Below are positions 16,703-34,138 of a stretch of 34,138 bases of DNA, piece after piece. The translations under genes and the position numbers were made by a program. The stretch's first letter is position 1, and the number at the start of each line of letters is the position of its first letter. This DNA comes from Elusimicrobiota bacterium (GTDB taxonomy: Bacteria > Elusimicrobiota > Elusimicrobia > UBA1565 > JACRDR01), in contig JACQPK010000193.1 in NCBI GenBank assembly GCA_016207565.1, positions 1-34,138 on the forward strand, written 5' to 3'. The notes under the pieces were generated by a model. That model made no database searches. It saw only the letters and a program-made list of their open reading frames with translations, and had not been told where the DNA came from.

Positions 16703-18055
<1,353 letters not shown>

Positions 18056-18077: not shown

Positions 18078-18101
18078 TTGTCAAGGCATGGGCCTTGACA
18101 A
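18078..18101. promoter_or_regulatory. 10-bp perfect inverted repeat, candidate operator
   Basis: Arms TTGTCAAGGC (18078-18087) and GCCTTGACAA (18092-18101) flank a 4-base spacer. The right arm contains the whole -35 hexamer TTGACA. No T-tract follows, so a terminator for purA is unlikely. A dimeric repressor bound here would block RNA polymerase. Confidence 0.6.
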
Positions 18102-18122
18102 GTCTAGTCCGTCTGCTATACT
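18095..18122 (+). promoter_or_regulatory. Sigma70-type promoter of the riboswitch operon
   Basis: TTGACA (18095-18100), a 16-base spacer and TATACT (18117-18122). The -35 is a consensus match and the -10 matches five of six positions. Transcription would start near 18129, a few bases before the aptamer's P1 stem, as expected for a riboswitch leader. Confidence 0.82.
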
Positions 18123-18132
18123 AGCCCCAGCA

Positions 18133-18229
18133 CGTTGTACCGACAAACTGGCAAACCGTTCGAAAGGGCGGGGCGCAAAGCGTAGGGCGCGGGGCCGAAC
18201 TCCGCGTCGCCTGGCTGCCGAAGACAACG
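18133..18229 (+). promoter_or_regulatory. Cyclic-di-GMP-I (GEMM-I) riboswitch aptamer
   Basis: The segment is closed by a perfect P1 stem, CGTTGT (18133-18138) with ACAACG (18224-18229). Inside, GGCAAACC (18150-18157) is followed by a stem capped with a GAAA tetraloop (18162-18165). The conserved GGGGCGCAAAGC (18170-18181) comes next, then a second hairpin with GCGGGG pairing to CTCCGC, and finally the 3' motif GCCGAA near 18217-18222. These are the conserved blocks of class I c-di-GMP aptamers. The base matching G20 of the Vibrio cholerae Vc2 aptamer is G (about 18151), which favours c-di-GMP over 3',3'-cGAMP; the intercalating adenine matching A47 is at about 18178. Identification is from memory of the consensus, without a covariance-model score. 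Confidence 0.88.
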
Positions 18230-18262
18230 CCTAAGGCGGCGATTTGGAGTAGCTTGCTTTCC

Positions 18263-18329
18263 GCCCGGCCCTGACTGGCTATCTTCGGGATAGAGGGGTG
18301 AGATAGTCAGCGGGGCCGGGCCTTTTTTT
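18263..18329 (+). terminator. Intrinsic terminator of the riboswitch expression platform
   Basis: GCCCGGCCC (18263-18271) pairs with GGGGCCGGGC (18312-18321), with further inner pairing TGACT/AGTCA, followed by seven Ts (18323-18329). It lies between the aptamer and the first ORF, so it acts as a leader terminator rather than an operon end. The apex holds two copies of GATAG (near 18288 and 18302) that can each pair with CTATC (18279-18283), so alternative folds exist. GGCGGC at 18235-18240 could pair either with GCTGCC in the aptamer 3' strand (18214-18219) or with CCGCC at the terminator foot, a possible switching element. Whether ligand turns transcription on or off cannot be decided by eye. 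Confidence 0.82.
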
Positions 18330-18347: not shown

Positions 18348-18869
18348 ATGTCGAGAAGGTGCGCCGAGTTGGGCCGAGCCCCGAGCCGGGGCCGCCGGGC
18401 GTGGGCCGTGGCCGTATGCGCCGCAGGGTTCCTTGCCGCGGCCGCCTCGGCGGAGCCCCTCCCGGTCGGCCTCGAGGCGCACGGCGTGGATGTGCGGGCG
18501 ACGCTCCGCAGCGACCTCGACGTGCGCGACGCCCTCAACCGCCCCGTCTCGCGGGTCCTCGTCGAGCGGCAGCTCGCGGCGGGCGCCGCCGCGGCCGACC
18601 CGAGCCGGGTCGTTTCGGCCTTGCCCTTCGCCCGGGCGCTGTGGGAAGCGATCAACCGGATTCTCTTCGGCGCCGGGCTGCGCGGCGGACGGCCGGCGCC
18701 GGCTCAGGCGGCCGCCCCCGGGTTGCCGTGGAGGTTGCCGCGCCCCGAGCCCGCCGCCCTCGCCGCCGTCGCCGCCGCCTACGCGGCGGTCGTCGTCTCG
18801 CTCTTCCTACGGCCCGCCGCCGTCGCGGCGGCCCCCGCCTTCGCGCGTCCTCACGTCCTCCGCTGCTGA
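18348..18869 (+). CDS. Small exported protein, unknown function
   Basis: 173 residues from ATG 18348, with GGGGAGG nine bases upstream. Two other frames are open here, but only this one has a good ribosome site and a plausible export signal. An Arg-rich n-region is followed by a hydrophobic core (AWAVAVCAAGFLAAAASA) with likely cleavage after ASA, about residue 35. The mature part has a short conserved-looking segment (VDVRATLRSDLDVRDALN), a Pro/Ala-rich middle and a C-terminal hydrophobic stretch (about 140-163) that could be a membrane anchor. I do not recognise it. As the first gene behind the riboswitch and terminator, it should share c-di-GMP control with the giant gene. A coding call in such GC-rich DNA remains moderately uncertain. 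Confidence 0.6.
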   Translation: MSRRCAELGRAPSRGRRAWAVAVCAAGFLAAAASAEPLPVGLEAHGVDVRATLRSDLDVRDALNRPVSRVLVERQLAAGAAAADPSRVVSALPFARALWEAINRILFGAGLRGGRPAPAQAAAPGLPWRLPRPEPAALAAVAAAYAAVVVSLFLRPAAVAAAPAFARPHVLRC

Positions 18870-18969: not shown

Positions 18970-19677
18970 GTGCTCGAAAGCCGAAAATCGACGACGCCGG
19001 CCGCCCCTCACGCGCGCGCGCGATACTATATCGCCGCGCTAGCGGCGTCCCTCGGCTTGGCGCTCGTCTCCCCCGCCCGGGCCCAGGCCCCGGCCGAACC
19101 GAAGAAAGACGCGCCGAAGGCGCTCAAGGACGTCCGCGGCGATCTCAAGGCGCGCAAGGCCTCCGACCGGCGGCGGGCGGCCGAGGCGGTTCGCCGGAGG
19201 GAGGCCATCGCGCCCGCCGCCGAGCTGCGGGCCGCCATCCGGGCCGAGACGAACCCCCACGCGAAGGTCTCCCTCCTGCAGGCGCTCCGGGCGCAGGAGG
19301 GCACCGCCGCCGCCGCCCCCGACCTGGTGGCGGGCCTGAAGGACCGCGTGCCCCTCGTGCGAGTCGTGGCTGCCCAGAACCTGGCCCAGTCGGGCTCCCC
19401 GGCCGCGACCGCGGCGCTGATCGGGGCCCTCGCCAAGGACGAGGATCCGGATGTCCGCAAGGCGTGCGCGGTCAGCCTGGGCCTGCACCGGAGCACCCAG
19501 GCGGTCGCGGCCCTGGCGGCCGCCGCGCAGGACCCGGACCCCTCGATCCGCTGGCACGCCGGCCTGGGCCTGTCCCGGCAGCCGGCCGGTCCCGAGGTGA
19601 CCGCCGCCCTGGACCGGCTCGGGAAGGACCCCGATCCCCGGGTCCGTGAGCGCGTGGCGGCCTGGAGGAAGCGGTGA
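18970..19677 (+). CDS. Exported HEAT-repeat protein
   Basis: About 235 residues if started at GTG 18970; a GTG at 18940 is an alternative and neither has a strong ribosome site. A signal peptide is visible (YYIAALAASLGLALVSPARA, cleavage near AQA). The mature protein has a basic segment (KALKDVRGDLKARKASDRRR) and then at least four HEAT-like helical pairs of the PBS-lyase type. Examples are DRVPLVRVVAAQNLAQSG, then DEDPDVRKACAVSLGL, then DPDPSIRWHAGLGLSRQ, then DPDPRVRERVAAW. HEAT repeats form a curved protein-binding scaffold. The stop overlaps the GTG of the giant gene, so it is translated in step with it and may be its periplasmic partner or chaperone. That role is an inference from linkage only. 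Confidence 0.75.
   Translation: MLESRKSTTPAAPHARARYYIAALAASLGLALVSPARAQAPAEPKKDAPKALKDVRGDLKARKASDRRRAAEAVRRREAIAPAAELRAAIRAETNPHAKVSLLQALRAQEGTAAAAPDLVAGLKDRVPLVRVVAAQNLAQSGSPAATAALIGALAKDEDPDVRKACAVSLGLHRSTQAVAALAAAAQDPDPSIRWHAGLGLSRQPAGPEVTAALDRLGKDPDPRVRERVAAWRKR
19664..19668 (+). promoter_or_regulatory. Ribosome-binding site of the giant gene
   Basis: GGAGG lies five bases before GTG 19674, inside the end of the HEAT gene. Together with the GTGA overlap and the signal peptide that follows, it fixes the start of the giant frame. Confidence 0.85.
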
Positions 19678-22600
19678 GCCTCCGGTCCCGCTCGTGGAAG
19701 GGGCTTCCCGTACTCGCGGGCCTGCTCCTCTGCGCGGCCTTCCTGCGGTTGGCGCGCTCCTGGGCCGCCACCGAGGCGATGGTGGTCTACCAGGAGGGCC
19801 TGTCCGCCTTGGCGACCCGCGACCTGGACACGACCAACGACGTCTGGGGCACGGTCACCCAGGCGGAGGACTTCAACAGCATGCCGGTCTGGGTGCGCAT
19901 CGCGGCCGCCCCCGTCGGTTCGGCGCGCCCGAACGAGAAGGTCATGGTCATCTTGGACAGCAACTCGGTGCTCAAGGCCATGGTGTTCGACGGCTCGACC
20001 TGGGGGCCGCCGCAGATCCTGTCGACCGCGCTGACCATCACGCGCACGCACATGCGGCCGTACGACGTGAGCTACACGGGGGACTACGCCCTGGTGGTCT
20101 ACGCCAACGGCGCCAACACGGGCTCCGGCTCGATGGCCTACCAGACCTGGGACGGCACGTCGTGGAGCGGAGAGTCGACGTCTACGAACGCGCCGGGGAC
20201 CGTCTGCGCCGCGCGCTGGGTCAAGCTGGCCCGCCATCCCACGACCTGGGAAAACGCGCTGATGGTCATCGACATCTGCAACCCGGCCTGGGTCTTCTTC
20301 GGCCGTCAGACCCAGCAGGTGCCGCCGATCTTCGCGTTCAACCTCCCCACCGGGCAGGAGGTGACGGACGCCAACTACGAGGGCGCCGACGTGGCCTACG
20401 AGATGCTCTCCGGCGAGATCCTCGGCGTGTGGGACCGGCCGTCCGCCAGCGAGAACGACAACGAGCTCGAGTACGCCCATTACAACGGCACGTGGAGCCA
20501 GGGCGAGTTCTCCAACGTCACGGCCGCCAACGGCGACACCGCCCGAAGGGTCAAGCTCGCCTCCAGGCCCGGCTCCGACACGATCGTAGTCGCGACCTAC
20601 GACAACCAGAACGATCTCGGCACGATCCAGTGGAACGGAACGGGCGAGACGACGTTCACCACCGTCCGCGTGGAGACCGCGCTCCGCAACACCGGGATCT
20701 ACAACTTCGACATGGCATGGGAGGAGAGCGGGGGCCAGCTCGTCCTCGCGTACACGGACAGCAACAACTACCTCCGCTACCGGACCTGGGGGGGCTCCGG
20801 CGACTGGGGCGCCGAGAGCGGCAACCTCGCGACGCTGGCGACGAACGCGCCGATTCGCTCGGTCGTCGTCTTTCCGGACCGGGGCTCCGACTACGTCAGC
20901 ATCTTCGGCGTGACCGACGAGCTGCCGACGCTCCCGGGAGGCGCCGTCTACGGCGTCCACTGGGACGGCAACGGGATCTCGAACGGCGCCTCGGGCTCGG
21001 ACGCCCCGCAGCTGGTCACGAACTACCTGTCCGACTGGACCCACGTGCCTTTGGCCGGCGCGGCGGGAACTCTCGTCTATTCGGACGCCGGCCGCCGAAT
21101 GACGACCCGGATCAACAACGAGTCCGACGGCAGCTGGCAGGGAGAGGGCGTGACCCAGCTCCTGGGAGGCGTCCGCTCCTCGGTCCTCAGGTCCGGCACC
21201 ACGCGCGAGGAGAAGGTGCTGGCGACGCTCGACGTGGAGGGCCGTTTGAAGGTGCAGGTATGGACCGAGGCGGGCGGCTGGTCGGCGCCCTTGGAGCTCG
21301 CCAACGGGCTGGCGGGAGTCGCGGCGTACCGGCCCTTCGACGTCGCCTATGAAAGGAAGAGCGGCCGGGCGGTCATCTTCTACGCGAACTCCAACATCCC
21401 GCGCTACAACATCTGGGACGGCACGACCTGGCTGTTCGGTGGGACCGGCGCGGCGATGCCCACCGGCGCGCCCGCCCAGTCCGGAACGCCCTGGTGGATT
21501 CGGGCCGAGGCGAATCCGGATCCGAACTCCGACGAGATCGTGGTCGCGACGCTCGACAACGCCGCGACGCCGGACCTGCGGGCCTACGTCTGGGACGGTT
21601 CCTCCTTCATCAGCGAGCTCCTCCTCGAGGACACGGCCGAGGCGACCGCGGCCAACAACCCGATCACCCAGGTCTTCGACCTCGCGTGGGAGAGCCAGTC
21701 GGGCCGCTGCATGGTGATCTGGGGGGACAACAACAGCACCACCTACCCGAATACCGGCGAGAAGATGCTCCGCTACCGCATCTGGGACACGGGTCCGAAC
21801 ACCTGGGGCTCCGAGACCAACACGCCGGACCAGGATTCGGACACGCCGGACATCCGTTGGGTCCGTGCCGTGGGCGACCCGAGGTCCAACCGCATCATCA
21901 TGGCCTCCTCCTTCTGGCGGTCCGGCCCGAACACGAGCCTCACGCTCAACAGCTGGAACGGCTCCGCGTGGGCGACCGCGACCCCGGGCTTCTACCAGGA
22001 GGTCGTCCTCAACAACCTCGAGCCGAACTTCACCCCCTCGACGTGGGAGCGCCGTCCCTTCGACCTGGGCTTCGAGGCCTCCGGCGAGCAGGGCCTGGCC
22101 GTCTGGTCCGCCGCCAACAACGACGCGCTCCAGTATCGGAAATTCGCCTCGGCGAGCGGCTCGTGGGACGCCACGACGGCGACGGGTCCGAACCTCATCT
22201 CCGACCCGCAGGTGATCCGCATCAACGCCGACACGATCACCGACGAGATGTACGTCCTGGCTTCCAACGCTCAGGGCATGATGTACTCGACTCGCTGGAC
22301 CGGCGCGGCCTTCGACGGGCCGAGCACGACGCTCCTGGGCGCCGTGCCGTTGAACGAGCAGTATCCCCGCGACGGAGGCCCGTCGAGCGGCTTCGTGCGC
22401 TACGAGCAGTTCGACGCCTCGTACCACCGGGACATCCTCAAGCCGGTCACGACGATCACGGCGCCCACGAACAACTCGCACTACAACAGCCTTTCGACGT
22501 TGAGCGGAAGCTCCAACGATCCCACGCCGAACGCCTCGGGCCTCAACCTGGTGGAGCTCAAGCTCGTCCGCCAGTCCGACGGCAAGTGCTGGACCGGGAC

Positions 22601-25600
22601 CGAAGCGGCCGACGACTCCGACTATGTCGCCTGCGGCGCCGGCGGCGTCTGGTTCAACGCCGCGGGCTTCACGCCCTGGACGAAGTCCATCACGACCCAG
22701 TCGAACGTCTTCGCGGACGGCCAGACCTACGTCCTCACCTCTCGCGGCACCGACAAGACGGGGAACGTCGAGTCGGCGACGCCGTCGGTGACGTTCGTCT
22801 ACGACCAGACCCTGCCGACGGGCGAGATCGTCGCGCCGAAGACGATCGCCGGCCTCGACGGCTACTACTCGGAGGCGGGCATCGCGACCGTCTCGGGAAC
22901 GGCCAACGACCTTAACCCCGGCGACGTGAACATCATCCGGCTCAAGCTCGAGCGGGTCGGCGACGGCCAGTACTACGACGGCACCAACTGGAACACCTAC
23001 GCACCGGGCTCCGAGCCGCTGCTCACGCCCAGCCCGAGCAACGGCACGGGCCTGGTCAACTGGTCGCTGAACATCGAGGCGCTCAACGGCAGCGACTCCG
23101 TCTACGACGACCAGGAGACCTACCGGCTGTACCTCCGCGTGACGGACAAGGCGGGCAACGATCGCGCGACCGAGGACGTGGTCACCTTCGCCATCGACGA
23201 GACCGCGCCCACGATCACCTTCGAGGTGCCCAAGCCCCTCACCCCGGGCCCGCTGGTCGGCCCGTCCGAGGAGCCGGTCTATCGGCCCTTCGGCTTCACC
23301 GCTCCGCCGCCTCCGATCGACGCCTACGACGGCGCGGCGGCCGACAACTTCGTGGTGGCCCAGATCGACGTCTCGATCCGTAACGAGATCAGCCTGAACT
23401 GCTGGTCGCACACCAACCAGGCGTTCAACGCCGCCTGCCCGCCGGACCCGGCCGGCTGGTTCAACGCCAACGGCACCACCGACTGGACCTACACCTGGCC
23501 GCCCGCCACCACCAACCTCGACGACTCGCGGCTCCGGCTCACGGTCCACGCCCGGGACGCGGTCGACTACGAGGCGAGCGAGACGTCCGTGATGTACTTC
23601 CGCGTGGACAAGACGACGCCGACCATCGCGATGATCAATCCCCTCGATACCGCCTGGAAATCCACGCTGACGTCGATCCGGGGCACGGCGGAGGACAACG
23701 CGCGCGGCTACCTCGAGGGCGTGCGCGTCCGGATCAAGCGCCTCTACGACAACGCCTACTGGAACGCCGGAAGCTGGGACACGACCCCGCCGGACGTGAA
23801 CTCGGCCAACTTCGTGCAGGCGATCGACGACCGCGACGGCGACACGTTCCTTCATACGCCGGACGTGACGTTCCGGCAGACTTGGACCAGCCCGTTCACC
23901 GATACGGACTGGTACAAGAAGCCCGGGGGGGGCTTCTACACCGCCGCGGACTTGAGCGGCACGCAGTTCAAGCTCTATATCACCGCCCTCGACCGCGCGC
24001 GAAACCGGACGGGGGCGCTCCAGCCCCACGAGCAGAAGTTCGAGGCGGACCCCGCGTTCCCGGCGAATCTCGGCGGGGGGTACGTGACGTTCAACTGGGA
24101 CGCGATCGCGCCGGACACGACCCTCACGTCGCCCGTCGGCGCTACCCTCGGCCCGGGGACTCCGTCGTTTTCCGGCGCCGCCACGGACGCCCACGCGGAC
24201 ATCGACGAGGTCCAGTACCGGCTGAGGCGGACGGACGTGGGTCCGAACCAGTACTGGACGGGCGCGCAGCAGTACCCCGACGGCCCCGACAACACCTGGG
24301 TGACGGTCGAGACCTGGGTGACGGCCAACTACACGGGGCCGGGCTGGAACGCGACCGATGAGCCGAACTACACGGCGACGGACTCCGGCAGGACCTACGA
24401 GCTCACGGTGCGCGCCTGCGACCGGGCGGGGGACGTCGCCCGCCCTTGCGGCGATCCGCTCAAAGAGGCGAACGTCACCACCTCGTTCACCGGGGCGAAC
24501 CAAAAGACGTTCACGATCGACAGCACGCCGCCGACGCTGGGCATCGACGACCCCGCGGTCGACGGCGAGTCGCGGAACCTCGCCAACGACGGCATCGGCC
24601 CGGCCCTCGACCCGAGCGGGAGCGCGGGCGACGCGAGCGGCATCGCCACGACGGAGGTCCAGATCTCCAAGGGTTGTCCCGGCAGCTGCCAGTATTGGAA
24701 TGAGACGACCCCGGGCTGGCAGGCGGGGGTGTTCTGGAACACGACCGACCTGGGGGGCGCCTCGTGGAGGTTCGACTTCGACCATATCACGCTCACGGAC
24801 GGACTCACCTACACCGTGACGCCGCGGGCCACCGACACCATCGGCAACCAGGGCGTCGGGGCCTTCAAGCGTTTCGTCTGGGATGTCTCGCCGCCCACCG
24901 CCAATGTGCTCTTCCCGTCGAGCGGCGCCGCCGTCTCTCCGAACGCGGTCGTGGGCGCCTGGGATAAGTCCGTGTCGGGCGACGCGGCCGACCCGGCGCC
25001 CGGCCAGCCCAACCAGGCCGAGATCTATATCCAGGACCGGACCACCGGCTGGTACTGGGACCCGGTCGACGCCCAGTTCGAATCCTCGCCCTTGGCGCCG
25101 TTGTGGTTCGCGATCGCGGACAGCCCGGCCGACCTGGCCTGGAGCGCCACCTTCAACGCCGTGACCTGGCAGACCGGGGTGTGGTATCACGTCTCGGCGC
25201 GCATCCGCGACCTCGCCGACAACGAGACCGGCCAAAGCTCTCCGGGGAACCCGGGCGACGGCACGGTCCCGCTTCCGATCTTCTACGACACCGAGAAGCC
25301 CGTCTCGCGCGTCTCGAGCATCGCCGACGGGACGTATGTCAACTCCCTGACGAACGTATCGGGCACGGCCTCCGACTTCGGCACCGGACCCCGCCGCGGA
25401 CAGGTCAGCAAGGTCTTCCTCCACGTCTACAACGTCAGCCAGGGCCAGACCTACGACTGGCTCGTGCCCGAGTGGGACACGGGCGACCTCGATCTCGCCG
25501 CCGCCAATCCCGAGACCGTCACGAACCACTGGAAGGAGGTTTCCTTCGTCGGCCAATCGAGCGGCACCTGGAGCCAGTCCCTGACGTTTTTGCCCAGCGG

Positions 25601-28600
25601 CTTCACCTACCGGATCACCGTCCGGGCCAAGGACTGGTCGGGGCAGATCGAGAGCGCGCCCGTCTCGGTTTCGTTCACCTACGACGCGCCGGCGGGCAGC
25701 GACTTCACGAACGAGATGCCGCGCGTGACCATTACGGCTCCGGCCAACAACCTCCATACCTACTCGATCCTGACCCAGCTTACCGGCACCGCCTACGACG
25801 ACGTGAAGGTGCAGAGCGTGAGCGTGATGTGGCGGCGGTTCAACGCCAACGGCACGACGGACTACTGGAACGGCGCCGCGTTCACGGGTACCGAGTCGTG
25901 GGTGGCCGGCCCCCTCGTCGTCCCGCCCGGCGACTCGACCTCCGAGGCCTTCACGTTCAACTTCCCGGGGGCCGACATCTTCTGGCTCGCCGACACCGCC
26001 CACGACGTTCGGGGCCGGGCCCAGGACGCCGCGGGGAACCTGACTCAGTTCGCGTTCTCGACGAGCACGTTCGTCTACGACGTCTCCCGTCCGACCGCGA
26101 CGATCGGCTTCCCGCTGCCGGGCGGCTTCGTGGCCGAGACGGCGCTCTCCTCCGGGTCCGCGGTCGACACCGGCGCGGGCAAGATCGGGCAGGTCCAGGT
26201 CCGGATCCAGCGCAATACCGACAACCGCTGCTTGGACATGGGCGTGCCGCCGAACGGCGACTGGGTGCTCTGCGCCTGGCCGACCTACGATTTCGAGAAG
26301 TGGAACGACGCGACGCTCTCGGGAAACAATCCTTATACGTGGACCTTCTCAAGCGCGGCATGGAACTCGGACGGCCTCGGCGGGCAGTTCACGCTGAACG
26401 CGCGGGCGTGGGACCTGGTTCCCCGTTTGGGCGTGACGTACTCCACGGTGACGTTCAACGCGGACTTCCAAAAGCCGAACTCGAAAGTCACGTTGCCGGA
26501 GCATTCCGCGAGCTACTCGAGCCTCCCGGAGGTCCGGGGCACCGCGCAGGACGCGGGGCCGGCCGGAATCCGGCGCGTGTGGGTGTCCTTCCGCCGGAAC
26601 TCCGACAACAAGTGGTTCAATCAGTCGAACAAGACCTTCGATCAGGACTCGGGCACCTCCCGGCCTCCGGGCGACTCCGGCAGCGGGTCCGTCGGAGGCA
26701 ACTACTGGGTCTCCGTCGACACCGACAACGCCAACCCCGTGAACTGGCTGGCGACCGGGTCTTCGACGCCGACGTGGCAAGACGGCGTGAGCTATACGGT
26801 CTTGAGCGCGGCCGAGGACCGGGGCGGCAACGTGGAGGACCGCCCGACGACGCCCGCGGCCAACAGCAACCGGGTGACGTTCAGCTTCGTGCAGCCCGGT
26901 CCCGAGTCCGGCGTCACGAAGCCGGTCGCCGGGGGGCCGCTCTTCAAGACGGGCGTCGTCTTGCAGGGAACCGCCAACGACCAGACCACGCTCGTGGAGG
27001 TGCAGATCAAGGACGTGACGGACAGCCAGTGCTGGTGCGACCTGCCGGAGGTCTGCGCGGGCGGGGCCGGCTGGAAGGATGAGCCCTGCTCCTTCTGGGT
27101 CAACGTGGTCGGCTACGTCGCCCAGTCGCCGACGTGGAATTTCACGATGCCCGCCGATCCGTCGAGCCAGCTTCACCAGTACTCGATCCAGTCGCGCTCC
27201 CGGCGAACGATCCCGGCGGCAACCGAGAGCCCGAAGCCGGCGAGGACGTTCTACCTCGACGACGTCGCTCCGGTGAGCAACCTGACTCTGCCCGATACCG
27301 GCTTCAAGAACCGGCTGCCGCTCCTCGCCGGCAACGTGACCGACGACTCGACCGACCCCGCCCCGGTCGGGCTGGCGAACAAGACCGTGTACTTCCGCAT
27401 GCAGCACGAGAACGGGAACTTCTGGGATCCCGTCGGCGAGAGCTTCGTGGCCGCCGGGGGGATCGACTGCCTGACCCCGGGGACGACGAACGGGACCTGC
27501 CTGGTCGCGACGCCCACGGGCGCCAGCAGCTACGAATACACGCACGCGCGGTTCACCGACGGAACGGCGTTCACCAACGACAAGCAGTATACGGCCAGCC
27601 TGATCGCAAGGGACTACGCGAGCAACAGCCCCGGAGCCGTGAGCCGGAGCTTCCGCTGGGACCTGGACCCGCCGGTGGCGGCAAGCACGCAGCCGGCGAC
27701 GGCGCCGACGATCAACAGCCTCGGGACCCTGGCCGGCACGGCCTCGGAGGACTTTTCGCCCGTGGTGGTGACCAGCGTCTCCATCCGCTCGCTCCTCGAC
27801 GATAAGTGCTTCGACGGCAGCTTCTTCACCCAGACCTGCCCCTTCTGGCTTTCGGCCAGCGGCTCGGGCAACGCCACGGCCGGCTCGGGGGTCTGGAGCC
27901 GCGCGGCCGGCGGCCTGACCACGCTGCTGGGTACCTACAACACGTGGTACACGATCCTCTCCCGGGGCATCGACGAGGCGGGCAACCATCAGACCACGTT
28001 CGCCGACAACGTCTCCTCCCGTACTTTCCTGTTCGACTCCCTGGCCCCCTTCACCCAACTGACGGTGCCGACCGACAAGGATGCCGGCTCGACGAGCGGA
28101 CGCTACAACAGCTCCGAGCTCGGGACGATCGCGAGCCCGCTGGAAGGCACCGCGCAGGACCAGAACGCCCCCTGGGACTCGGGGATCCGGGACGTGCGGT
28201 TCCAGCTCTATTACACCCAGGCGTCGGAGAACTGGTATCTGCGCACGGACTGGACCCCGATCGCGTTCTCGTCGCACGTGCCCCTCGATAACGGGGGCTG
28301 GGTGCAGCGCTCCGTCTACGACTCGGGGACGAAGGTCTGGAAGTTCCTGCCGGTCATCCCGTGGGGCTACCCCGTCGAGCGTGTCTACACGATGAAGTCC
28401 CGGGCCGAGGACGCGAGCTTCACCGGCACGGGAGCGGCGACCGGCAACTTCGGCAACCCCGTGACCGACGGCGTCGACGTCCGCGACTTCATCGTCGATG
28501 ACACGTCGCCCACCGTGACGCTGACCGCCCCGGCGGCGGCGGCGGTTCGCGAGCTCCCGTCGATCACCGGGCAGGTGAACGCCGACATCTCGGGCCTCGA

Positions 28601-31600
28601 CAAGGTCGAGCTGAAGCTGGCGCGCCAGGACGGCAAGGAGTGGGACGGCGACTCCTGGGAGACGGGGCCTTTGGGGTGGCTCACGGCCTCGTGCCCTGGT
28701 TGCACGACCGGGCTCGTCGCGTGGAGCTACAGCAGCGTCTCCGGCGCGTTCCAGGACAACAACCAGTACACGATCTCCCTGCGGGCGAAGGACCTGGTCG
28801 GAAACACCCAGACGAACGCCGACTTCACGTTCAAGTTCGATACCTCGTCTCCGACCTTGACGATCGAGTTCCCGAGCCCGAAGACGCCGGAGCCGTACTA
28901 CTCGAACGACTCCCTGTCCACGCGCAAGAGCACGTTCACGTGGGGCAACATCACCGATCCGGGGGCCAACGCCTCGGGCGTGACCCAGGTCTGGGTCGCG
29001 ATCTCCTCGGGTCTCACGGGCAACGATATCTGGTGGAACCCGGCCTCCTCGGCCTTCGACCTGGGCGACAACACCGCGATCGAGTGGTCGACGCAGGTGT
29101 ACCGCTACGTCGGCGGCACGTGGGAGTACACCCCGGGCTGGACGCTCAAGGACGGCTACCGGTATTCGATCTTCGTGAAGGCGCGCGACCTGGCCGGCAA
29201 CACCACCAACTACGTGCTGACGCCGGGACAGTCGGGCGGGGCCCACACGCAGGTCTTCCATTATGATGTCACCCGCCCGACCGCGACGGCGACGACGCCG
29301 GCGAACGGCTCGGCCTACGCCGCGCTGACGCAGTTCCAAGGCAGCGCGGCCGACACCGGCGCCGGCGCCTCGGACGTGTCGAACGTCTACCTCGCCGTCG
29401 AGCACGCGGACGGGCCGACCGGTCAGATCGGCTTTTGGCACTGGGGTAACTCGGCGTTCACCAACTCGATCGTCGGGCAGCCGAGCCTCGACCCCGACAG
29501 CTTCAGCCCGGCCTGGCAGCAGGTGGCGAGCGGGCCGGGGGCCTGGACCTGGCCGGTGCCGGGGGGGATGTTCTCCAGTTCGAACACCTACCGGGTCATC
29601 GTCGCGGCGAAGGACAGGGCCTCCAACCGGCCCTCGGACGCCCAGGCGGGCGGGGCCGGCTTCGGCAACTACTTCCGCTACGACACCGAGTCGCCTTCCG
29701 CGAAGGTGACCGCGCCGGCGCTGGCGCCCCGCAACCCCTCGACGATCGGCGCGAACATCACGGGCACCGCCTCGGACGCGACGAGCGGCGCCTCGGGCAT
29801 CAAGACGGTGCAGGTGCTGATGAAGCTCAACTCGCCGGGCTTCGAGGCGTACTGGAACGGGTTCACCTCGGGCATCTTCGGCACCGACTGGGATCAATCG
29901 GCGAGCCGGCGCAACAACTGGCGGGACGTGTCGGCGCCGCTGGACAGTTGGACCGAGGCGCTTCCTCCCCTGCCCGCGGGCGGCCAGCACGACTCGCGCT
30001 ACTACACGATCTGGGTCCGCACCACGGACTACGCGAACAACGTGCTCGCGACCCCCTCGGACGTCCAGCTCGACGCCAACCAGAACTCGGACGGCTCCGG
30101 GGCCTGGCGGTTCATCTACGACGCCACGCCCCCGACGTCCGTGTCGACGGGCCCGGCCCGCTACCTGGCCGCCGCGCCTTTTGCCCTGGCGGGCAACTCC
30201 TCCGACGCGTTCCCGGGCCGGCAGCCGTCGGGGGTCAACGAGGTGAAGCTGCGCCTCAAGCGCTCCGACGGGCTCTACTGGAACTTCGACGACGCCTGGG
30301 GCGGAGAGACCTGGGCCGGGGTCTTGAGCGCGGTTGACCCGTGGTCGATGCCGGTGCCCGTCGTCCAGTTCGCCGACGGCTACGAGTACTACGTGAACTC
30401 CTGGGCGAAGGACGCCTCCGCCAACGGCGAGACGGACCTGTCAACCTGGACCTTCACGCTCGACCAGACCCGGCCGGTCTCGCGCGTGGGCGTCCCGGCG
30501 CACAACGGCTTCTTGGGCGCGGTCACGCAGATCACCGGCACCGCCGATGACCGCTACTGCCAGTGGAACGCCCCGTTCACCTGCCCCGGCGCGGGCGGCC
30601 GGAACTTCGAGAGCGGCATCGCTCCCTCGAGCGTGACCGTCGCGCTGATGCGCTACAGCGACGAGAAGTACTGGAACGGCGCGGACTTCGCCTCGAACGT
30701 GCCGGTCTGGTCGACCGCGTCCTTCGTCGGCCAGTCGAGCGGCACCTGGACCTATAACCTCTCGGCCGGCGCGCTGGTCGACGGCTCGAGCTACACCGCC
30801 TCCTCGCGCGTGGTGTGGGACCGCGCGGGCAACGTCGAGACCCTGATCACGACCAACACCTTCACGATGGACAACCAGGCGCCGGTCTCGCTGGCGACGG
30901 CCCCGACCGGCGCCGTCAGCCAGATGAACGCGCTCTTCGGCACCGCGCGCGACCCGCTGATCGGCCAGCTGGACGTGGTCCTGCTCAAAATCCACCATGT
31001 CTCGGGCCCCGGCTCGCGCGCCGTGTGGAACGGGACCGGCTGGACGCCCGGCGACGACGATATCTGGGTCGGCACGGGCACGATCGGGGGCCTCGTCGAG
31101 CAGACGACCTACACGTGGACGTTCAACCAGGCGGTCACGTGGCGCAGCAACGCGAACTACGAGATCAAGACGCGCGCGCGCGACCGCGCCGGCAACCTCT
31201 CGCCGATCCCGCCGGTTCCCGAGCTGACCTTCACCATCTCGGGTCCCCAGTCGGGCATCACCGGACCGGGCGCGGGCGAGCCCCATTTTCAGCCCGCGAA
31301 CCTGGGCGCGATCACGGGCACCGCGGTGAACGCCTCGACCGCCGCCGTACGGATCATCGACGCGGGCCCGGACCGCGTCCTCGACGACGGCAACGACGAC
31401 CTCGTGTGGACCGGCGCGGTCTGGGCGTCGACCAGCCCGTGGCCGGCGATCTGCGCCGCGGACCTCTGCTATATCGGCGCCTCGGGCTACAACGGCGCGC
31501 CGAACCCGAACACCTGGAGCTTCGCGTTCCCGACCGCGAGCTGGACTCCCGGGCGCCGCTACCGCGTGCAGGCGAAGGCGATCAACCCGCCGGACGGCGA

Positions 31601-34138
31601 GATCGACTTCACGGGCGAGGAGACTCGCACCTTCATCATCGACGCCGCGGCTCCCACGCCGACCGTGACCTTCCCGGCGGGCCAGGCCTACCGGCGCAAC
31701 CAGCTCGGGACGCTGACCGGCAGCGTCTCGGACGCGGCTCCGGGCATCCTGGTGAACACCAACGTGCGCTTCCGCTTCGTGCGGGTGATGGACGGTTACG
31801 AGTGGGACGACACGATCGACGGCTTCGCGGCCCCCGCCTCCAATCCCGCCGGCCAGGACCTGGTGGCGACCCCCGCCGGCGGCAACAACTTCACCTATAC
31901 GAACACGGAGCTCGGTAACGACGCCGGTTTGGAAGACGGCCTCCTCTATCAGATCCGCTTGACGGGCGTCGATCAGGCGGGAAACAACGGGACCGTCAAC
32001 CAGCCGGCCGCCGGCTTCCGCTACGACGTGTCCTACCCGACCGCGACCATGACGACGCCGTTGCCGAACGTGATCATGAACCGGGTCGGACGGATCGTCG
32101 GCAACCATGCCGACCGCGATCCCAACGGCGCCAGCTCGAACTACGACCCCTCCGGGGTCACGCAGGTCAAGATCTTCGTCCAGAGCCAGCAGAACGGCGG
32201 CTTCTTCCAGGACGCGCCGACCGCCGGGTTCTTGAGCGGCACGCCCTTCGGCCTCCAGGCGACCGTGCACGAGACGTCGTTCACCTACAACAACCCCGAC
32301 CTCAACGCGGCGATGTCCGACGGCCGCTACACCCTCTATGTGCAGGCGGTCGACCGCGCCCTCAACGAGCAGTACAGCTTCGCGGCGGCGAACTCGTCGT
32401 TCACGATCCTCGTGGACAAGACGGGGCCCACGATCGGCCTCACCCAGCCGGCGCTCCCCGCCTACAACCAGGGGGCGATCGTCGCGGCGGGCATCGGCGG
32501 CAACGCGGACGATCCCTTGGTCCCCTTGGCCAACGGTACCTCGTCCGGCTTGTTGACGACGGGCGAGGGCATCGACGTGAACCTCTGGTACGTGGTCGGC
32601 GTCAGCAGCAACTACTGGAACGGGTCGAACTGGGTCCCCTCCTTCTCGACCCTCCCGGTCAACGGCGCCGCCGGCTGGACCCTGCTCGCCGCGCCGAACG
32701 CCGCGCAGTGGGCGGCGGCGGGGGACCAGACGTTTTTCGTCCGCGCCCGGGCCCACGACCGCACCGTGCTCGAGGACGGTAACGTCAGCGTGTCGAGCGG
32801 CAACGTGAGCGCGTTCACGCCGGACCGCTCGTTCATCGTCGACAACACGCCCCCGGTCTCGTCGCCGACGTGGCCGGTCAACGGCAGGTACGCGAACGCG
32901 ATCTCCTCCATCACCGGCACCGCGAACGCGGCGTTCTCGGGCCTGGCGTCGGTCGCGGTGAAGATCACGACGAACAACGCCACGGGCCCGTGGTGGGGAG
33001 GCGGGGGCTGGACCTTCGACGCGGGACAGTCCTGGCGGCCGGCGCAGGTGCTGAGCCAGACCACCTGGATCTACCCCGGGACGGCGGGCGACGCGCCCGC
33101 CGCCTTCGCGGCGGCGTTCCAGAACGACTACCGCTACCTCTTCTACACGCGCGCGACCGACAACGCGGCGAACCAGGAGAGCTCGCCGCCCGTCATCGCG
33201 ACGGACTTCGATACGACGCCTCCCATCATTACGATCGCGCGGCCGGCGGGACCGCCCTCGAACCCTGCGTACACCTCCAGCGACACCGTCGACACGACGC
33301 GCTGGATCAACCTGACGTCCGGCACGGTCAACGACCTCGGCACGTTCGCGTCGGGCGTGGGCACGGTGTGGGTCGCGGTCTCGTCGGGCGTGCTCGAGAA
33401 CCTGTGGTGGGACGCGACCTCGGGGCTGTTCACGCAGAGCCAGGCCAACATCCACTGGACCACGAACGTCTTCACGGGGGGCACGAGCTGGAGCACGGCG
33501 CCCGCGACCTTCCTCCACCAGGCCTGGCGCGACGGCGCCTCCTACCGCCTGCACGTCAAAGCCTGCGACGTGGCGGGGAACTGCGGCAACAACAACACCG
33601 CGCCGGGCCTTTCCGCCGCGGGCTGGAACCAGCTCTTCAAGTTCGACCTCAGCCGCCCGACGTCCACCGTCACGACGCCGGCCAACGGCGCCGACCAGCG
33701 GGCGATCGCGCAGCTCGCAGGCAACGCCTCCGACGCGAACGCCGCCGTCTCGCGCGTGTACGCGGCGGTGCAGCACACCGGCGGCGCGGGCGCGCAGCCG
33801 CTCGGCTGGTGGAACTGGGGCAGCGGCGCCTTCGACGCCGTCGGCAACCCGTCGCCGAACGAGCCGCCGGGCGTCTACTGGACGCTGGTCGCCTCCACGA
33901 CGCTCTTCGACCAGTTCACGATGAACTGGTCCACGCCGGCCCCGGCCAACATGTTCAAGTCCTCGGAGACCTACCGCGTCGTCGCGATGGCGGTCGACAA
34001 CGCGGGGAACTTCCAGGCGGGCCCGGATTTCGCGGGGGCCGGCTCGAGCTTCCGCGTCGACACGAGCTCGCCCGTCGCGAAGGTCACGGCGCCGGTCGGC
34101 AGCGTCCGGCTCGCGACCTTGGGCAGCCTGCTCGGGAC
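19674..34138 (+). CDS. Giant exported multi-Ig-like repeat protein (3' partial)
   Basis: The frame starting at GTG 19674 has no stop to the window edge: at least 4,821 codons. Frame was confirmed at many points by continuous domain-like translation (for example near 21336, 25281, 30474 and 34080). A signal peptide is clear (GLPVLAGLLLCAAFL, cleavage near ARSWA-ATEA, about residue 31). Residues ~32-920 hold irregular beta-rich repeats with motifs such as FDLAWESQSGR and YRIWD...TWG, suggesting a propeller-like module. From about residue 923 (nt 22440) come Ig-like repeats averaging ~134 residues: PTxTxTxPxNG, then [IL]xGTAxD, a central aromatic motif like YWNG, and an end motif RAxDxAGN. Twenty-nine are complete and a thirtieth is cut. 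Paired cysteines occur in several repeats. It is likely secreted or surface-bound, as an adhesin or stalk; anchoring and any C-terminal secretion domain lie beyond the window. Confidence 0.93.
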   Translation, partial: MSLRSRSWKGLPVLAGLLLCAAFLRLARSWAATEAMVVYQEGLSALATRDLDTTNDVWGTVTQAEDFNSMPVWVRIAAAPVGSARPNEKVMVILDSNSVLKAMVFDGSTWGPPQILSTALTITRTHMRPYDVSYTGDYALVVYANGANTGSGSMAYQTWDGTSWSGESTSTNAPGTVCAARWVKLARHPTTWENALMVIDICNPAWVFFGRQTQQVPPIFAFNLPTGQEVTDANYEGADVAYEMLSGEILGVWDRPSASENDNELEYAHYNGTWSQGEFSNVTAANGDTARRVKLASRPGSDTIVVATYDNQNDLGTIQWNGTGETTFTTVRVETALRNTGIYNFDMAWEESGGQLVLAYTDSNNYLRYRTWGGSGDWGAESGNLATLATNAPIRSVVVFPDRGSDYVSIFGVTDELPTLPGGAVYGVHWDGNGISNGASGSDAPQLVTNYLSDWTHVPLAGAAGTLVYSDAGRRMTTRINNESDGSWQGEGVTQLLGGVRSSVLRSGTTREEKVLATLDVEGRLKVQVWTEAGGWSAPLELANGLAGVAAYRPFDVAYERKSGRAVIFYANSNIPRYNIWDGTTWLFGGTGAAMPTGAPAQSGTPWWIRAEANPDPNSDEIVVATLDNAATPDLRAYVWDGSSFISELLLEDTAEATAANNPITQVFDLAWESQSGRCMVIWGDNNSTTYPNTGEKMLRYRIWDTGPNTWGSETNTPDQDSDTPDIRWVRAVGDPRSNRIIMASSFWRSGPNTSLTLNSWNGSAWATATPGFYQEVVLNNLEPNFTPSTWERRPFDLGFEASGEQGLAVWSAANNDALQYRKFASASGSWDATTATGPNLISDPQVIRINADTITDEMYVLASNAQGMMYSTRWTGAAFDGPSTTLLGAVPLNEQYPRDGGPSSGFVRYEQFDASYHRDILKPVTTITAPTNNSHYNSLSTLSGSSNDPTPNASGLNLVELKLVRQSDGKCWTGTEAADDSDYVACGAGGVWFNAAGFTPWTKSITTQSNVFADGQTYVLTSRGTDKTGNVESATPSVTFVYDQTLPTGEIVAPKTIAGLDGYYSEAGIATVSGTANDLNPGDVNIIRLKLERVGDGQYYDGTNWNTYAPGSEPLLTPSPSNGTGLVNWSLNIEALNGSDSVYDDQETYRLYLRVTDKAGNDRATEDVVTFAIDETAPTITFEVPKPLTPGPLVGPSEEPVYRPFGFTAPPPPIDAYDGAAADNFVVAQIDVSIRNEISLNCWSHTNQAFNAACPPDPAGWFNANGTTDWTYTWPPATTNLDDSRLRLTVHARDAVDYEASETSVMYFRVDKTTPTIAMINPLDTAWKSTLTSIRGTAEDNARGYLEGVRVRIKRLYDNAYWNAGSWDTTPPDVNSANFVQAIDDRDGDTFLHTPDVTFRQTWTSPFTDTDWYKKPGGGFYTAADLSGTQFKLYITALDRARNRTGALQPHEQKFEADPAFPANLGGGYVTFNWDAIAPDTTLTSPVGATLGPGTPSFSGAATDAHADIDEVQYRLRRTDVGPNQYWTGAQQYPDGPDNTWVTVETWVTANYTGPGWNATDEPNYTATDSGRTYELTVRACDRAGDVARPCGDPLKEANVTTSFTGANQKTFTIDSTPPTLGIDDPAVDGESRNLANDGIGPALDPSGSAGDASGIATTEVQISKGCPGSCQYWNETTPGWQAGVFWNTTDLGGASWRFDFDHITLTDGLTYTVTPRATDTIGNQGVGAFKRFVWDVSPPTANVLFPSSGAAVSPNAVVGAWDKSVSGDAADPAPGQPNQAEIYIQDRTTGWYWDPVDAQFESSPLAPLWFAIADSPADLAWSATFNAVTWQTGVWYHVSARIRDLADNETGQSSPGNPGDGTVPLPIFYDTEKPVSRVSSIADGTYVNSLTNVSGTASDFGTGPRRGQVSKVFLHVYNVSQGQTYDWLVPEWDTGDLDLAAANPETVTNHWKEVSFVGQSSGTWSQSLTFLPSGFTYRITVRAKDWSGQIESAPVSVSFTYDAPAGSDFTNEMPRVTITAPANNLHTYSILTQLTGTAYDDVKVQSVSVMWRRFNANGTTDYWNGAAFTGTESWVAGPLVVPPGDSTSEAFTFNFPGADIFWLADTAHDVRGRAQDAAGNLTQFAFSTSTFVYDVSRPTATIGFPLPGGFVAETALSSGSAVDTGAGKIGQVQVRIQRNTDNRCLDMGVPPNGDWVLCAWPTYDFEKWNDATLSGNNPYTWTFSSAAWNSDGLGGQFTLNARAWDLVPRLGVTYSTVTFNADFQKPNSKVTLPEHSASYSSLPEVRGTAQDAGPAGIRRVWVSFRRNSDNKWFNQSNKTFDQDSGTSRPPGDSGSGSVGGNYWVSVDTDNANPVNWLATGSSTPTWQDGVSYTVLSAAEDRGGNVEDRPTTPAANSNRVTFSFVQPGPESGVTKPVAGGPLFKTGVVLQGTANDQTTLVEVQIKDVTDSQCWCDLPEVCAGGAGWKDEPCSFWVNVVGYVAQSPTWNFTMPADPSSQLHQYSIQSRSRRTIPAATESPKPARTFYLDDVAPVSNLTLPDTGFKNRLPLLAGNVTDDSTDPAPVGLANKTVYFRMQHENGNFWDPVGESFVAAGGIDCLTPGTTNGTCLVATPTGASSYEYTHARFTDGTAFTNDKQYTASLIARDYASNSPGAVSRSFRWDLDPPVAASTQPATAPTINSLGTLAGTASEDFSPVVVTSVSIRSLLDDKCFDGSFFTQTCPFWLSASGSGNATAGSGVWSRAAGGLTTLLGTYNTWYTILSRGIDEAGNHQTTFADNVSSRTFLFDSLAPFTQLTVPTDKDAGSTSGRYNSSELGTIASPLEGTAQDQNAPWDSGIRDVRFQLYYTQASENWYLRTDWTPIAFSSHVPLDNGGWVQRSVYDSGTKVWKFLPVIPWGYPVERVYTMKSRAEDASFTGTGAATGNFGNPVTDGVDVRDFIVDDTSPTVTLTAPAAAAVRELPSITGQVNADISGLDKVELKLARQDGKEWDGDSWETGPLGWLTASCPGCTTGLVAWSYSSVSGAFQDNNQYTISLRAKDLVGNTQTNADFTFKFDTSSPTLTIEFPSPKTPEPYYSNDSLSTRKSTFTWGNITDPGANASGVTQVWVAISSGLTGNDIWWNPASSAFDLGDNTAIEWSTQVYRYVGGTWEYTPGWTLKDGYRYSIFVKARDLAGNTTNYVLTPGQSGGAHTQVFHYDVTRPTATATTPANGSAYAALTQFQGSAADTGAGASDVSNVYLAVEHADGPTGQIGFWHWGNSAFTNSIVGQPSLDPDSFSPAWQQVASGPGAWTWPVPGGMFSSSNTYRVIVAAKDRASNRPSDAQAGGAGFGNYFRYDTESPSAKVTAPALAPRNPSTIGANITGTASDATSGASGIKTVQVLMKLNSPGFEAYWNGFTSGIFGTDWDQSASRRNNWRDVSAPLDSWTEALPPLPAGGQHDSRYYTIWVRTTDYANNVLATPSDVQLDANQNSDGSGAWRFIYDATPPTSVSTGPARYLAAAPFALAGNSSDAFPGRQPSGVNEVKLRLKRSDGLYWNFDDAWGGETWAGVLSAVDPWSMPVPVVQFADGYEYYVNSWAKDASANGETDLSTWTFTLDQTRPVSRVGVPAHNGFLGAVTQITGTADDRYCQWNAPFTCPGAGGRNFESGIAPSSVTVALMRYSDEKYWNGADFASNVPVWSTASFVGQSSGTWTYNLSAGALVDGSSYTASSRVVWDRAGNVETLITTNTFTMDNQAPVSLATAPTGAVSQMNALFGTARDPLIGQLDVVLLKIHHVSGPGSRAVWNGTGWTPGDDDIWVGTGTIGGLVEQTTYTWTFNQAVTWRSNANYEIKTRARDRAGNLSPIPPVPELTFTISGPQSGITGPGAGEPHFQPANLGAITGTAVNASTAAVRIIDAGPDRVLDDGNDDLVWTGAVWASTSPWPAICAADLCYIGASGYNGAPNPNTWSFAFPTASWTPGRRYRVQAKAINPPDGEIDFTGEETRTFIIDAAAPTPTVTFPAGQAYRRNQLGTLTGSVSDAAPGILVNTNVRFRFVRVMDGYEWDDTIDGFAAPASNPAGQDLVATPAGGNNFTYTNTELGNDAGLEDGLLYQIRLTGVDQAGNNGTVNQPAAGFRYDVSYPTATMTTPLPNVIMNRVGRIVGNHADRDPNGASSNYDPSGVTQVKIFVQSQQNGGFFQDAPTAGFLSGTPFGLQATVHETSFTYNNPDLNAAMSDGRYTLYVQAVDRALNEQYSFAAANSSFTILVDKTGPTIGLTQPALPAYNQGAIVAAGIGGNADDPLVPLANGTSSGLLTTGEGIDVNLWYVVGVSSNYWNGSNWVPSFSTLPVNGAAGWTLLAAPNAAQWAAAGDQTFFVRARAHDRTVLEDGNVSVSSGNVSAFTPDRSFIVDNTPPVSSPTWPVNGRYANAISSITGTANAAFSGLASVAVKITTNNATGPWWGGGGWTFDAGQSWRPAQVLSQTTWIYPGTAGDAPAAFAAAFQNDYRYLFYTRATDNAANQESSPPVIATDFDTTPPIITIARPAGPPSNPAYTSSDTVDTTRWINLTSGTVNDLGTFASGVGTVWVAVSSGVLENLWWDATSGLFTQSQANIHWTTNVFTGGTSWSTAPATFLHQAWRDGASYRLHVKACDVAGNCGNNNTAPGLSAAGWNQLFKFDLSRPTSTVTTPANGADQRAIAQLAGNASDANAAVSRVYAAVQHTGGAGAQPLGWWNWGSGAFDAVGNPSPNEPPGVYWTLVASTTLFDQFTMNWSTPAPANMFKSSETYRVVAMAVDNAGNFQAGPDFAGAGSSFRVDTSSPVAKVTAPVGSVRLATLGSLLG
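19767..22437 (+). other. Propeller-like N-terminal module of the giant protein
   Basis: This part lacks the Ig-like motifs. Instead, FD-x-A/G-[WYF]-E motifs recur at 20706 (FDMAWE), 21336 (FDVAYE), 21675 (FDLAWE) and 22059 (FDLGFE). Each is followed by strands such as MVIWGDNN and LRYRIWD, and by TWG or SW segments. Spacing is irregular (630, 339, 384 bp). A beta-propeller or similar beta-sheet head is an inference; no calcium- or sugar-binding motif was identified with confidence. Confidence 0.55.
22440..34138 (+). repeat. Ig-like protein repeats, 29 complete plus one partial
   Basis: Approximate repeat starts (nt): 22440, 22810, 23207, 23610, 24107, 24525, 24885, 25292, 25716, 26085, 26466, 26895, 27264, 27663, 28044, 28506, 28845, 29268, 29690, 30126, 30468, 30876, 31239, 31644, 32025, 32418, 32847, 33213, 33645, 34065. 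Mean spacing is ~400 bp. DNA identity between most units is low, so the array is old; only a few segments are nearly identical. Confidence 0.8.

Follow-up and report, generated by a model that had tools for sequence, protein, structure and literature searches.

This locus raises the question of whether a terminator-shaped hairpin, lying between a c-di-GMP-I riboswitch aptamer and an operon for a giant secreted protein, serves simply as the output of the riboswitch or represents a genetic element of its own. The window analysed is the whole of contig C77 (34,138 nt) from a draft Elusimicrobiota MAG of 4.95 Mb (519 contigs, 77.5% complete, 5.4% contamination). All genomes with which it was compared are likewise MAGs or drafts, and throughout, the starts of genes and transcripts and the leaderless promoters are those inferred from sequence.

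A c-di-GMP-I leader ahead of a giant-protein operon

Directly 5' of the unit lies purA (adenylosuccinate synthetase; 16736-18055, + strand; Pfam PF00709, 1.6e-165), a synteny anchor found on the same contig as the hairpin element, adjoining or near it, in most genomes searched. It is followed by a near-consensus sigma-70 promoter (TTGACA-16 nt-TATACT, 11 of 12 matches; 18095-18122, +) with a predicted start at ~18129, and the aptamer match begins 18 nt behind this promoter. An Rfam scan of the whole window returned a single match at gathering threshold, c-di-GMP-I (GEMM-I; RF01051) at 18140-18222 (+), which spans the full length of the model (1-87) at 53.9 bits against a cut-off of 35 (E 5.2e-8); the score for c-di-GMP-I-GGC (RF03167) was 50.4 bits, below its gathering cut-off of 59. 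The covariance model bears out the earlier note, which had proposed a c-di-GMP-I riboswitch from the letters of the sequence. Each of the motifs on which that proposal was built was also located (GGCAAACC, CGAAAG, GCGCAAAGC and GCCGAA), as was a closed P1 stem (CGTTGT, 18133-18138, with ACAACG, 18224-18229), such that the aptamer with its closing stem, as read from sequence, extends over 18133-18229 (+).

Position 20 of the window aptamer is G (GGCAAACC, not AGCAAACC). In Geobacter GEMM-Ib riboswitches, A20 confers specificity for cGAMP and an A20G change reverses it (PMC6456294). Given G20, c-di-GMP would be the expected ligand of the window aptamer; the five best GGDEF domains of the window genome all retain the c-di-GMP-type Asp.

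Four GEMM-I copies are present in the window genome and at least one in 43 of the 57 relatives searched, and the loci sort into classes by their downstream content. Another class, from the same family as the window genome (loci L034, L038, L039 and L042; G000 C513, G001 C155, G002 C227 and G003 C238), carries the cGAMP-type identity, A, at position 20 (TAGCAAACC or TAGAAAACC); no cGAMP-type GGDEF was found among the best GGDEF matches in G000 (77% complete). Enlargement of the first stem-loop by ~35-50 nt was observed in L079, L082 and L066 (G005 C9, G009 C7 and G016 C67), and a pair of near-identical aptamers 1.6 kb apart in L051 (G008 C59:28140 and 29761). Other GEMM-I leaders, e.g. L082 (G009 C7), L047 (G006 C25) and L083 (G013 C1), have an ATG 2-10 nt past the aptamer, and their hairpin and T-run fall within the coding sequence, where the T-run encodes the core of the signal peptide. 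Terminator-like scores of -15 kcal/mol or lower were obtained for 25/50 leaders with such an ATG, compared with 18/137 control signal-peptide ORFs.

Downstream of the window leader, on the + strand, are genes for a small exported protein of 173 aa (18348-18869), an exported HEAT-repeat protein (~18970-19677; PF13646, 7e-21; predicted GTG start at 18970) and a giant secreted Ig-like repeat protein (19674-34136; Big_3_3 and Big_13), of which the window holds the N-terminal 4,821 aa, the frame being open at the contig end. Two exported proteins and a giant repeat protein had been described here before, correctly, together with a proposed link between the riboswitch and the giant gene. This link is upheld by the recurrence of the same three genes, in the order small exported protein, HEAT protein and giant repeat protein, behind leaders of the window class in other genera and families. 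It had assumed that no strong internal promoter intervenes, and a scan of 16.7-22.5 kb detected none from the leader up to the giant-gene start, the site at 18095-18122 being the only promoter-like one on either strand.

The small exported protein has no match in Pfam or NCBIfam and yields a weak AlphaFold model (pLDDT 68, pTM 0.32); its family alignment (A4) is defined by the motif [LV][DE][LV]RDxxxRP[VI]S and a C-terminal LxC, with RD, RP and LxC invariant. The giant ORF has a signal peptide-like start, and its complete orthologues are encoded in a single open frame of 11,262 aa (G025) or 14,133 aa (G038), with a FlgD-type Ig domain at the C-terminal end (tested on the G025 copy). In both of these genomes, a second HEAT gene (HEAT2) and then a CHASE2-cyclase gene come after the giant gene. 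In four aptamer-bearing genomes the CHASE2-cyclase gene lies 36-45 kb downstream of the hairpin; three of these were read through, and in each it stands past the giant gene. A (GC)n run (encoding ARAR or similar), at ~19013-19025 in the window, occurs just before or at the HEAT gene start in many homologous loci, and in G030 at the giant-gene start. Elsewhere in the window, positions 744-3236 encode an 830-aa protein whose C-terminal half contains a DnaA-like AAA region (TIGR00362 at 140 bits, which is below its cut-off).

The -35 box of the promoter is overlapped by an inverted repeat (TTGTCAAGGC-N4-GCCTTGACAA, 18078-18101), and a dyad TGTCAAG-N-CTTGACA spans the -35 box both here and in homologous promoters. 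Its upstream half, TGTCAAG with at most one mismatch, is present in 19 of 29 promoters, compared with 0.6 expected after shuffling. Several homologous promoters also carry CTTGACAAATCAAG, which has FNR/CRP-like spacing. The dyad is a possible operator, adjacent to a set of genes that includes the CHASE2-cyclase.

A hairpin conserved in sequence as well as in shape

Before the first ORF the earlier note had placed an intrinsic terminator. A hairpin with a U-run is indeed present at 18263-18329 (+) and has the shape of such a terminator, comprising a GC-rich stem-loop of 59 nt (18263-18321; -41.9 kcal/mol, z -5.2 against dinucleotide shuffles) and U7 (18323-18329). As a full description, “terminator” falls short, for the element is conserved separately and is kept where aptamer and operon are both absent. 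Leaders of the window class align gap-free across the hairpin. Among 33 distinct hairpin sequences 97.3% of cells are paired, compensatory changes on both sides are observed in 10 of 21 pairs, and the covariation score is 0.373, compared with 0.192 for shuffled and no more than 0.156 for slid versions. The 14-nt apical loop (CGGGATAGAGGGGT, 18286-18299, +; consensus CGGGAYAGAGGGGT) is near-invariant, with a mean pairwise identity of 94.5% as compared with 68% and 72% in the flanking P2 strands. The hairpin is thus conserved in sequence as well as in shape. An intrinsic terminator does not require a conserved loop sequence, and in place of the unconstrained loop of a terminator and nothing more, we found a loop held nearly constant above a covarying helix. 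An alternative small hairpin within the element (CTATC:GATAG) was rejected, having 73% of cells paired and zero compensatory changes.

No family in Rfam 15 matches the hairpin above gathering threshold, the matches returned being sub-threshold and unrelated. We built a covariance model, R1, which scores the window copy at 94.1 bits and whose E-values are rough. Across 341 genomes of the phylum this model identified the hairpin in 39, once per genome except for two copies in G023, and the genomes that carry it all fall within one order and two other families of that order's class. Also, in an exact-pattern search of 84,980 named species genomes, every record that contained it bore the title Elusimicrobia(ota), apart from two with the title “bacterium”. 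In G054 and G055 the loop also matched coding-like DNA without the hairpin, and we dismissed these additional matches as chance. A U-run follows nearly all copies. The second G023 copy (C35, L129) is situated away from purA with a promoter of its own and no sense gene directly downstream; its stem is differently compensated and its loop is the same.

P1 and the terminator stem do not overlap, as 33 nt separate the 3' strand of P1 from the stem. A conserved antiterminator between the aptamer or linker and the 5' arm of the hairpin was rejected, as pairing of this arm with upstream sequence (0.58) was no better than that of shuffled arms (0.56). Given these two results, direct control of termination at the hairpin by c-di-GMP is something that we infer rather than observe, and the antiterminator result likewise leaves no ground for claiming an ON or OFF sign. 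In the OFF-switch Cd1, aptamer P1 and terminator can coexist, and in the ON-switch pilM a P1 strand is shared with the terminator (PMC9262584); the window leader resembles the former in the coexistence of aptamer and terminator and, unlike the latter, keeps the strands of P1 and hairpin separate.

The hairpin with and without the aptamer

A GEMM-I aptamer lies just upstream of 31 hairpin copies (23 read directly and 8 from coordinates), and nine copies in eight genomes have no detectable GEMM-I, absence in these eight being scored with stricter filters. The same promoter is found at loci of both kinds. In the copies without the aptamer the hairpin begins 13-64 nt past the predicted start, the G017 copy being cut by a contig end, and the giant operon is not behind it. 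Furthermore, a genome-wide comparison detected the small exported protein family in 8/8 aptamer-bearing and 0/8 aptamer-less genomes tested. From this comparison of gene content and of loci, the aptamer and the giant operon, which flank the hairpin on opposite sides, are seen to be present or absent jointly. Loss of c-di-GMP signalling was rejected as an explanation for loss of the aptamer, because the aptamer-less genomes still encode GGDEF proteins.

On a PurA tree, the distribution of aptamer and operon calls for five changes, at least four of them forced by well-supported branches, with the hairpin retained each time; the tree is of one gene with 27 rows, and the count is approximate. The loop and the compensated stem are equally well conserved in genomes with and without the aptamer, except in G046, where a free-standing copy displaced from CHASE2 has a drifted loop. 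The genus g5 possesses the aptamer and operon without the hairpin, and some relatives are without the hairpin altogether. From this distribution the hairpin appears to be inherited INDEPENDENTLY of the aptamer.

Close behind the hairpin in most aptamer-less genomes is the CHASE2-cyclase gene, and at most of these loci the HEAT or CHASE2 gene follows the hairpin in sense, where a cis role is possible. The gene that follows usually has its own leaderless-type -10: TAGAAT was found just before the HEAT2 or CHASE2 start in 6/7 aptamer-less loci, compared with 15/505 background ORFs, with a peak at 6 nt. In aptamer-bearing genomes also, HEAT2 has a leaderless-type -10 (TAGAAT or TATTAT) 6 nt before its start. 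As the hairpin is kept without the aptamer and operon, and as the gene behind it mostly brings a leaderless-type promoter of its own, the promoter and hairpin, which stand alone in eight genomes, look like a transcription unit of their own.

What the promoter-hairpin unit may be

We favour, with a probability of roughly 0.6, a reading in which the leader consists of two separate RNA devices, the hairpin loop would be recognised in trans, and the promoter and hairpin would form a functional unit, most likely a small-RNA gene. Transcription would begin at the sigma-70 promoter behind purA and run through a leader with the c-di-GMP-I aptamer (G20), the 59-nt hairpin and the U-run. Without readthrough the transcript would stop at the hairpin, giving a short RNA of ~200 nt here and of ~80-140 nt in lineages lacking the aptamer. 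If extended past the hairpin, it would become the operon mRNA for the exported protein, the HEAT protein and the giant Ig-like protein (11-14 thousand aa in orthologues), and c-di-GMP would thereby set how much is invested in a giant surface or secreted protein. The partner recognising the loop might be an RNA or a protein, and the aptamer and giant operon would have been built into the leader of the small-RNA gene. Judged across loci, the promoter and hairpin appear to behave like a free-standing small-RNA gene or a loop-recognised attenuator, to which the aptamer would be accessory.

We advance more tentatively, at somewhat less than even odds, a specific form of this reading in which the hairpin is the body of a new Elusimicrobiota small RNA acting in trans through its 14-nt loop. 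In giant-operon lineages a single RNA would then report c-di-GMP, terminating to give the small RNA and reading through to give an mRNA of 35-45 kb. No exact complement of the loop was found in the genomes of the 57 relatives, nor a conserved one within about 2 kb of the element, so that we have no RNA target to name.

The main rival to a small RNA, which we regard as a real if unlikely alternative, is that the hairpin is a cis-acting attenuator and forms with the aptamer a two-input leader, a protein or ligand bound to the loop governing readthrough into the giant operon or into HEAT/CHASE2. The near-universal U-run, the sense genes behind the hairpin in most loci and the drifted loop of the G046 copy that lies apart from CHASE2 would all be accounted for. 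Such an attenuator sits less easily with the -10 elements that HEAT2 and CHASE2 possess in their own right, or with the intact loop of the G023 copy that has no sense gene directly downstream. It seems improbable that the leader is an ordinary GEMM-I transcriptional switch, in which c-di-GMP promotes or counteracts a standard intrinsic terminator, with the conservation of the hairpin being incidental. Aptamer, hairpin, U-run and ORF do stand in the usual order, and P1 and terminator coexist as in the OFF-switch Cd1 (PMC9262584), but the constancy of the loop beside a covarying helix, the survival of the element without the aptamer and an antiterminator signal not above that of shuffled arms all speak against it. 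It is very improbable that the unit is left over from lost riboswitch operons and is now decaying: every aptamer-less genome is also without the operon, and some relatives have no hairpin at all, but outside G046 the loop and compensated stem are no less conserved than in aptamer-bearing genomes, the promoter is retained too, and the hairpin outlasted each of four to five changes on the tree.

The locus shares features with several known systems. The window resembles the RF01051 riboswitches Cd1 of Clostridioides difficile and Bc2 of Bacillus thuringiensis, the latter upstream of the collagen adhesin gene cap, in aptamer family, G20, leader position and an adhesin-like target (PMC4933901). Unlike these, its aptamer precedes a sequence-conserved hairpin that also occurs without an aptamer, and a downstream operon of more than 35 kb, in the phylum Elusimicrobiota. 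The cGAMP riboswitches of Geobacter (GEMM-Ib) share its fold and the presence of several GEMM-I leaders per genome before surface-structure genes (PMC6456294), whereas the window copy has G20 and would be expected to bind c-di-GMP. The abundant non-coding merRNA, which contains a c-di-GMP riboswitch, is similarly a short RNA with a GEMM-I aptamer that has been proposed to act alone, but it lacks a downstream operon and was found only in Bdellovibrio (PMC3627812); in Elusimicrobiota it is the hairpin that is conserved rather than the aptamer. The Listeria trans-acting riboswitch (as cited in PMC3627812) and Rli51 (PMC11394854) are likewise terminated leader RNAs with a possible trans role beyond attenuating the gene behind them; the present locus differs from both in that the terminator hairpin itself appears to be the conserved, separately inherited part. 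Giant genes were already known from Elusimicrobia and Omnitrophota (West-Roberts et al. 2023, as cited in PMC12057145), and the window likewise encodes a giant secreted protein within this broad group. What it adds is an RNA leader for a second messenger and a fixed gene neighbourhood, neither of which we found described in the portions of the literature searched; a search for papers combining Elusimicrobia, riboswitch and c-di-GMP likewise found none.

The hairpin provides a concrete candidate RNA family, present once per genome with the exception noted above and possessing a defined loop, in a largely uncultured phylum. In the lineages with the giant operon, the leader would tie second-messenger control to the making of proteins of more than 11,000 aa. 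That aptamer and operon were repeatedly lost or gained while the hairpin between them stayed unchanged also argues cleanly that a “terminator” can be a gene of its own. To our knowledge riboswitch terminators are seldom checked for sequence conservation, and other such elements may therefore have been missed.
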